From assembly GCA_001799845.1 (NCBI GenBank), contig MGUG01000014.1, positions 1 through 48,051 of the forward strand: DNA of 48,051 nucleotides, written 5' to 3'. Source of the stretch: Elusimicrobia bacterium GWC2_64_44. Its GTDB lineage: Bacteria > Elusimicrobiota > Elusimicrobia > Elusimicrobiales > UBA9959. Every line of letters begins with the position of its first letter. Position 1 is the first letter of the stretch. A program made the translations under genes and the position numbers. Shown piece by piece: positions 22,203 to 43,978 of the stretch. A model generated the notes under the pieces. The model was not told the DNA's origin. It saw only the letters and a list, made by a program, of their open reading frames with translations, and did no database searches.

Positions 22203-22237
22203 AAAAAAAGGGAAAGCAAATGTTACTTTGCTTTCCC
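22203..22237 (-). terminator. Rho-independent terminator between the nitroreductase and peptide operon
   Basis: Perfect 11-bp stem GGGAAAGCAAA/TTTGCTTTCCC with a 6-base loop; on the minus strand it is followed by seven T. It isolates the peptide operon from upstream transcription. The 184 bases between it and the nitroreductase stop hold several small hairpins (for example GGGCC-TTTT-GGCCC) and no convincing gene. Confidence 0.9.
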
Positions 22238-22421
22238 TGGATACATCCGGTTACGGCCGGATCGTGGATACTCTGGGGCCAATCCCCCAAATTACAAGGA
22301 AGTGTTACGTATATAGTATGGCAGAACGCCCTAGGCGGGACAAGAGGCATAGGACCTTGCCAGGCGTGGGCCTTTTGGCCCGAAGCGACCGCCAGAACCC
22401 CAGGAGCGCCGCTGAACAGAA

Positions 22422-43548: not shown

Positions 43549-43943
43549 TAAAAAGCGAGAGCCCCCGTAAGCGGGGGCTCTTCACTCTGGCGCGAGGGCC
43601 AGGACTGCGACTTCGCAGGGGGAGGACCGGGGGACCGACGGGGCACGAAACGCCGCCGAAGGGCCGGAACACCCGCCCGGGACCGGGGCGCCAACCGCGC
43701 CGGGGAACCGGGGACCCCGGGGGAACCGCGTCGCCTGCAGCGAGACAGCGGACCGGGGGACTACGCCGGGGCCGGGACACCGCCCGACCGACCGCAACCG
43801 ACACCGCACCGCAGGGCCCGACCGCCACCGCAACCGCACCGCACACACACCACACACACCGCGACCAGACCGCGCCACACACACCACACACCGCGACCGC
43901 GGGGCCCACACTACCGGCGCAACCTTGAAAAGAGCAGGACTAC
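43549..43943 (-). ncRNA. Putative novel A-depleted structured RNA
   Basis: About 395 nt from a predicted start near 43943 to the terminator. From 43924 to 43614 (311 nt) the RNA strand has only four A residues (opposite T at 43731, 43736, 43762 and 43912). Runs of 149 and 117 nt have none. The 5' part is G/U-rich with GCGGU and GUGUGUGG units; the 3' part is C/G-rich. Near the end come hairpins CUGCG-AAGU-CGCAG (43605-43618) and CUGGC-N6-GCCAG (43587-43602), then the terminator. Without A there can be no AUG, UAA, UAG or UGA, so the open frames here are an effect of composition. Not a recognisable 6S, SRP, tmRNA or RNase P RNA. The promoter and terminator argue for a real transcript; RNA data are lacking. 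Confidence 0.7.
43550..43581 (-). terminator. Terminator of the A-poor RNA, between it and the sulfatase gene
   Basis: AGAGCCCCCG-CTTA-CGGGGGCTCT on the minus strand, followed three bases later by TTTTT. Strong for leftward transcription. The plus side has only TTC after the stem, so it ends the sulfatase transcript less well. Confidence 0.88.
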
Positions 43944-43949
43944 ATATCG

Positions 43950-43978
43950 AGTATAACAGACGACTGTTGACTTGTCAA
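43950..43978 (-). promoter_or_regulatory. Consensus sigma-70 promoter for the A-depleted RNA
   Basis: Minus strand TTGACA (43978-43973), 17-base spacer, TATACT (43955-43950). It is the best sigma-70-like promoter I noticed in the window. It points left into the A-poor tract and has no gene of its own otherwise. Confidence 0.88.

Follow-up and report, generated by a model that had tools for sequence, protein, structure and literature searches.

A Multicopy Family of Structured, Adenine-Poor Noncoding RNAs in One Elusimicrobia Family

The minus strand of the window, the whole stretch of 48,051 nucleotides from Elusimicrobia bacterium GWC2_64_44 analysed here, carries a predicted transcription unit whose RNA is nearly devoid of adenine. 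Together with its homologs it belongs, on well-supported grounds, to a multicopy family of about 250-450-nt structured noncoding RNAs in one Elusimicrobia family, and the body of these RNAs avoids A almost INDEPENDENTLY of genome. These findings suggest that the structured RNA family is new and that the limit on its composition lacks a described precedent: neither an A-poor Elusimicrobia RNA nor an adenine-free RNA of this kind was described among the top matches listed from full-text literature, in which few subscription journals are represented.

The Predicted Transcription Unit

Direct reading of the minus strand gives the hexamer TTGACA (43978-43973), a 17-nt spacer and the -10 hexamer TATACT (43955-43950), the latter also supported by 76 distinct homologous units, with a predicted start at 43943. 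The predicted RNA of 395 nt runs from 43943 to 43549 and ends in a GC-rich hairpin followed by a T run; its start is placed by the promoter and by the onset of 5' conservation. All the elements that the sequence-only reading had proposed, namely a TTGACA-N17-TATACT promoter, a length of about 395 nt and three hairpins including a terminator, are found on this strand, and we infer from the sequence that the window unit is transcribed. The extended -35 region (43967-43978) forms the inverted repeat TTGAC-AA-GTCAA, a possible operator, and is conserved at 97-100% per position in the 76 units, a value that is partly circular because the set was gathered largely via that motif. The RNA opens with a conserved, A-containing 5' leader, GUAGUCCUGCUCUUUU (43928-43943), proposed as a recognition end on the basis of the 76 units and of alignments that were not selected by leader.

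The three 3' hairpins lie at 43618-43605, 43602-43587 and, for the terminator, 43580-43559. By eye, the first is kept among the 19 rows of the clade A alignment (A1) only in the nearest relative, L010. The second (CUGG...CCAG, 43587-43602) is present in both clade alignments, as helix 8 of A1 and helix 6 of the clade B alignment (A2). The intrinsic terminator as a whole (43550-43580), a GAGCCCCCG stem with its T run, is apparent from direct reading and from the clade A alignment.

The earlier statement that no AUG is present holds for the A-poor tract, although the unit does contain two GTG-started frames, 139 and 109 aa long. These open frames could be taken for a translated gene, in which stop codons would be nearly impossible owing to the scarcity of A. 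Of the 87 body indels that separate close relatives, only 15 have a length divisible by three, and the RNA helices covary, so that such a gene is extremely improbable; the frame-breaking indels in relatives rule out a protein-coding gene as a candidate.

Adenine Depletion

The A-poor tract (43614-43924, minus strand) contains 4 A, 104 C, 135 G and 68 U in 311 nt, in agreement, both in position and in count, with the sequence-only reading. On average, 311 nt of the window contain 58 A; the lowest 311-nt counts outside the locus are 30 A on the plus strand and 21 T, that is, 21 A on the minus strand. Since the U content of the tract is normal, the effect is a loss of A and not simply a high G+C content. 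Among 48,722 background windows of 200 nt (fetched loci, both strands, overlapping, with loci partly redundant), 11 hold at most 10 A, and two of these hold at most 5.

The same depletion is readily apparent in the 76 distinct units, which were selected by promoter and leader pattern with composition ignored; leader conservation in this set is partly circular, as the leader pattern was used for selection. In all 76, body A is below 0.6 of flank A, with a mean body A of 4.5% (maximum 10.0%) and flanks of 19.8%. Conservation of the A-poverty in relatives with the same promoter, proposed earlier as a check, is therefore found throughout the leader-defined units. Such homologs, sharing both promoter and A-poverty, strongly support the proposal of a complete transcription unit for an A-avoiding RNA, its transcription being predicted.

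A second set of 79 units was selected by an A content below half of that of the flank. Among the 38 sites outside it, three (L050, L138 and L139; A 10%, flank 20%) also belong to the family. In this set, body A is 4.4% in the G+C-richest flank class and 6.5% in the G+C-poorest, where the matching flanks have 16.5% and 26.6% A; the body scarcely tracks its flanks (correlation 0.36), and general genome composition was rejected as the cause. Body U, at 22.6%, differs little from flank T, at 20.1%. Along the transcript, A amounts to 15.5% at positions +1 to +25, falls to 4.3% and 5.5% over the two halves of the body, and returns to 14.5% over the final 45 nt. Even at predicted-unpaired positions, A reaches just 7.4% and U 44.6%.

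Phylogenetic Distribution and Gene Context

With the 430-base unit as query, matches are obtained in 31 of the 61 genomes of the relatives set, all within the window's genus, where 31 of 32 genomes are matched and the unmatched one is 66% complete. Some of these matches span promoter and leader alone; one such genome, G004, proved to contain a complete A-poor unit with 4.0% A. The nearest relative shares 90% identity in the unit. In a midpoint-rooted tree without support values, the units fall into two separate clades: the window copy belongs to clade A, and its genome's other copy, matched by the query in its initial part (G000:C32:38144), to clade B.

The promoter pattern TTGACAAGTCAA-N7-CTGYTATANT, allowing at most two mismatches, occurs in all 32 genomes of the genus, where some sites drive other transcripts. 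A scan of a named species collection for this pattern yields 105 stretches; among the matches listed, most are Elusimicrobia/Elusimicrobiales MAGs, some are named only "bacterium", and a few come from unrelated groups and have no A-poor body. None of the six viral-contig stretches with the promoter pattern is A-poor (27-41% A downstream). Promoter plus leader start, at three mismatches, is found in 33 of 294 genomes of the phylum and 5 of 90 genera, all in one family, some of the sites being other transcripts. Beyond the window's genus, A-poor leader-bearing units occur in g3 (L192), g10 (L185, L186, L191, L193), g12 (L187, L188, L189, L194, L195) and g13 (L196, L197, L198), and the confirmed units of these four genera contain 0.4-9.6% A. 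In the genomes sampled from the sister family f2, there are zero hits. The homolog search that had been suggested as a check has, in this way, placed relatives in five genera of one Elusimicrobia family. Separate assemblies carry the unit with the same makeup, which makes an assembly artefact very unlikely.

A covariance model of the 3' part of the unit (R1), built from 15 chosen rows that comprise clade A and three outgroups, matches 19 of 196 genomes of the class and 3 of 61 genera. Of the clade B copies that were not used to train it, it recognises L060 (E 2.5e-19) and L103 (E 9.5e-14); it is weak on L045 (E 0.0028), L127 (0.11) and the clade B copy of the window's own genome, L030 (0.06), and misses true members in G013, G025, G030, G080, G250 and the g13 genomes. 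Two family-like copies were found through R1: L181 (G010:C19:126668-126895) has no recognisable promoter or leader, and L182 (G115:C13:14623-14767) has the promoter and a different 5' end. Both are possibly decayed or variant copies. At L170 (G014:C9:50579-64587), about 14 kb accommodate three A-poor units, with about 830 bases between two of them, and one more stands near 99.7 kb of the same contig; this arrangement is read as local duplication.

The window copy follows gyrA, marC and a 331-aa gene for which Pfam gives no match. Among the neighbours listed, a neighbour as at the window copy is common to up to 18 units, and other units follow different genes. In a 71-unit set, likewise selected by a composition threshold, the largest neighbour cluster comprises at least 19 units, some loci being short on one side. 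Gene contexts recur inside clades and differ between them. The lack of a constant protein neighbour among those listed suggests a trans-acting role, and the RNA would thus be a free transcript acting in trans.

Other transcripts use the same promoter type. One is a small RNA of about 100 nt with normal A content and the promoter TTGACAAGTCAA...CTGCTATA (L149, L063, L145, L054, L102, L117, L131, L180). In L149, L063, L145, L054 and L180, its 3' end is a CCCGCCAAAAGCGGG hairpin and the downstream gene is one that we take to encode glutamate formiminotransferase; no Rfam match is present in L063, L149 and L180. Another type carries a GAGGGAGGC motif near its start (L128, L143, L154, L052, L095, L099, L089, L146), with a strong terminator-like hairpin in L128, L154 and L095 and no Rfam match in L052, L099 and L128. 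The same promoter type also precedes c-di-GMP-I riboswitches in L051 and L092. The combination of TTGAC-N2-GTCAA with a TA at the -10 distance is over-represented in the genome of the window, with 19 rows, including some sites counted twice, versus 1 in the reversed control. This looks like a -35 region that also serves as an operator, or one that is the hallmark of a class of strong promoters. Elsewhere in the window (22232-22302, minus strand), a 2dG-II purine riboswitch aptamer gives a strong match of 85.5 bits.

Covarying Helices

Compensatory changes, suggested earlier as a check, are evident in both clades. In clade A (A1; 19 sequences, 49 named pairs), 93.6% of the cells are paired and 33 are double-changed, versus 13.8 in shuffles (0 of 500 reach 33); control structures slid along the alignment are only 40-55% paired. 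In clade B (A2; 24 sequences, 38 pairs), the corresponding values are 93.7% paired and 28 double-changed cells versus 11.0 in shuffles (0 of 500 reach 28), with slid controls at 42-55% (maximum across both clades 55.2%). Three of the ten shuffle measures fail to stand out clearly: the number of double-changed pairs in clade A is reached by 43 of 500 shuffles, and the pair-type counts by 348 of 500 in clade A and 74 of 500 in clade B. Covarying helices, one of them long-range, show in the alignments that the predicted transcript is a structured RNA.

The long-range helix P1 connects the end of the leader (5' strand GCGCCGG, 43914-43920) with the 3' half (CCGGCGU, 43763-43769), as supported by the alignments and by a table of strand pairs. 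It encloses a G/U-rich domain of variable length with GCGGU repeats (43770-43913), defined by alignment and motif counts. The table covers the 62 of 79 units from which both strands could be extracted by motif, 17 being dropped, and its evidence is supporting and not independent, as the 3' motif is broad but not free. All six pairs form in 58 of these 62 units and a mismatch occurs in 4; the strand combinations are GCGCCG/CGGCGC (31), GCGUCG/CGACGC (8), GCACCG/CGGUGC (4) and GCUCCG/CGGAGC (1), the others differing mostly by G-U pairs. In L191 of genus g10, GCGUCGG and CCGACGC were read directly as the P1 strands. The value for P1 in clade B is just 79.3% paired owing to misalignment of some rows, and in the combined two-clade alignment P1 is misaligned in some clade B rows as well.

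Downstream of P1, the clade A alignment contains a conserved stem with a covarying inner hairpin (43715-43758; helices 2-4), a conserved stem with a hairpin (43676-43713; helices 5-6), where a G-C pair is replaced by C-G in 9 of 19 rows, and a further hairpin (43640-43656; helix 7), with one covarying pair and another pair broken in 14 of 19. The earlier proposal of wholesale pairing between a G/U-rich first half and a C/G-rich second half is not borne out: the conserved structure consists instead of one long-range helix and local hairpins in the 3' half, and the window RNA is no more stable than its own dinucleotide shuffles (MFE z +0.91). A missing single-sequence energy signal may be expected at such a G+C content. 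The three-tier G-quadruplex pattern occurs in 0 of 74 units; two-tier patterns number 18.0 per unit versus 8.4 in mononucleotide shuffles, an excess that G-runs alone may explain.

Probable Selection Against Adenine

In the bodies of 17 close-relative pairs, 232 C/T differences are observed versus 48 A/G differences, and the upstream same-strand sequence, in the 8 pairs where it is alignable, contains 279 C/T and 239 A/G. Within these 8 pairs, whose flank is mostly coding, C/T differences per C are 0.073 in the body and 0.095 in the upstream flank, and A/G differences per G are 0.014 and 0.090, respectively (Fisher p 5e-6). The contrast is weaker at predicted-unpaired positions, with 27 C/T on 189 C and 9 A/G on 164 G. 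Part of the G/A deficit is due to pairing, since a G-C pair is lost on a change to A-C, whereas C-G stays paired as U-G.

The depletion is strand-specific and confined to the transcribed part, as would be produced by a strand bias linked to transcription, in which A-to-G and C-to-U changes of the non-template strand erase A at a very active locus. However, a mutational A-to-G excess would not cut G/A exchange six-fold, and C/T exchange is not raised. Furthermore, the same transcript keeps about 15% A in its first 25 and last 45 nt, and putative leader-less Elusimicrobia transcripts from the same promoter type contain 12-29% A. Such a bias is therefore a poor candidate, and as the sole cause it was rejected on the close-pair substitution rates. 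Reverse transcriptases of diversity-generating retroelements target A, so that an enzyme of this kind might have rewritten the locus from its own RNA and purged A in a ratchet. The RVT_1 domain is found in 8 of the 32 genomes of the genus and is absent from the window's genome (90% complete), yet the A-poverty is general; this scenario is scarcely credible, and it was rejected as most carriers have no RVT_1. The best reading of the sequence comparisons is that A is kept out of the body by purifying selection and not by mutation.

A further step is that direct selection excludes one nucleotide from the body and that A is kept just in the 5' recognition end and the terminator region, giving a functional three-letter RNA. 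We consider this almost, but not quite, an evenly balanced proposition. If it is true, synthesis past the start perhaps needs almost no ATP, and the RNA is perhaps invisible to nucleases and proteins that require A.

Putative Function and Relation to Known RNAs

The mechanism is a guess. Our tentative proposal, for which the balance tilts against rather than in favour, is a trans-acting RNA made of two parts, an A-containing 5' end for recognition and a long-lived, A-free, CGGU-rich body acting as scaffold or decoy. The short 5' end would recognise a target, and the body, with a median of 12 CGGU motifs, would bind and sequester a putative RNA-binding protein. Avoidance of A would free the body of the ribosome and protein sites AUG, AGGAGG and GGA and of single-stranded nuclease sites that contain A. 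Such a logic would resemble that of protein-sequestering RNAs.

The CGGU motif has a density of 4.34 per 100 nt versus 0.54 in the background, and GCGGU is present in 73 of 74 units. The number of CGGU motifs per unit ranges from 1 to 25, the observed/expected ratio from its trinucleotides is 1.06, and there is no clear loop preference, GG being unpaired at 0.207 versus 0.174 for other G; these three observations weaken the decoy idea. Like the CsrB/RsmZ sponge RNAs, the family RNAs are a few hundred nucleotides long, have sibling genes that are poorly conserved in sequence, their own promoter and intrinsic terminator, and many copies of a short G-rich motif. Unlike them, the family RNA has CGGU instead of GGA, a long-range helix and A depletion. 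GGA is absent from the window body and averages 1.04 per unit in 74 units, and CsrA (PF02599) has no match in the 90%-complete genome of the window, the model giving a match in 3 of 14 control genomes; membership in CsrB was rejected for the rarity of GGA and the absence of a CsrA match.

The leader offers another view of the RNA: unpaired GUAGUCYUGAUCUYUU could serve as the seed of a base-pairing regulator of several mRNAs, with the body merely protective and the siblings additive. In alignments not selected by leader, positions G7, G10, T17, T19, T21 and A9, T11, G15 show little or no variation in both clades, versus 58-83% conservation for the 5 bases that precede the leader in the 76 units; conservation begins at about the predicted first base, and many genomes hold sibling copies. 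However, 46 of the 66 exact 13-nt leader complements in 32 genomes are the units themselves. Among 7 loci compared of the 20 non-unit sites, no convincing conserved complement appears and only those of G004 and G027 are alike. Hfq (PF17209) also has no match in the window's genome (90% complete), and a leader seed leaves the A-free body unexplained, so that we regard this seed function as rather unlikely. The two similar loci (L210, G004:C80; L225, G027:C95) are a related, apparently coding repeat; L210 has the complement one time and L225 two times, which is probably due to chance.

Near-universal presence in the genus and the strong promoter, together with no match to 6S RNA (RF00013) in the window or its genome, would also fit an RNA with a housekeeping role, 6S-like or belonging to another RNP, whose appearance is unusual in this phylum. 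The 6S model gives a match in just 5 of 14 control genomes, so that its absence here says little. At the Rfam 15 gathering score, there is no match for the window unit or the units of L030, L082, L101, L103 and L125, and by E-value the A-poor strand gives just two chance-level hits at the terminator end. The several variable copies and the zero hits in the sampled f2 genomes speak against a housekeeping role as well, which we judge improbable, if slightly less so than the mutational origin of the depletion discussed above.

The trans-acting scaffold that we propose shares with OLE, ROOL, GOLLD and raiA RNAs that it is conserved, structured, noncoding and intergenic. Those RNAs use A freely, and, unlike them, the family units listed above match no Rfam model at gathering. 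A three-letter ribozyme lacking cytidine has been made in the laboratory (PMC4192621), and such ribozymes likewise fold on a reduced alphabet. They are artificial and lack C, whereas the family RNA is natural and nearly without A.

Conclusions

Structured RNAs usually depend on A for loops and tertiary contacts. If the interpretation given here is true, the family, whose host genomes are ordinary in composition, would represent a natural RNA for which little more than three letters suffice, and it would point to a selective force against A in RNA, such as a nuclease, a binding protein or the ATP supply. It also lends itself readily to comparison, since its natural variants, of which at least 76 are distinct, are spread over five genera and keep A at about 5%.
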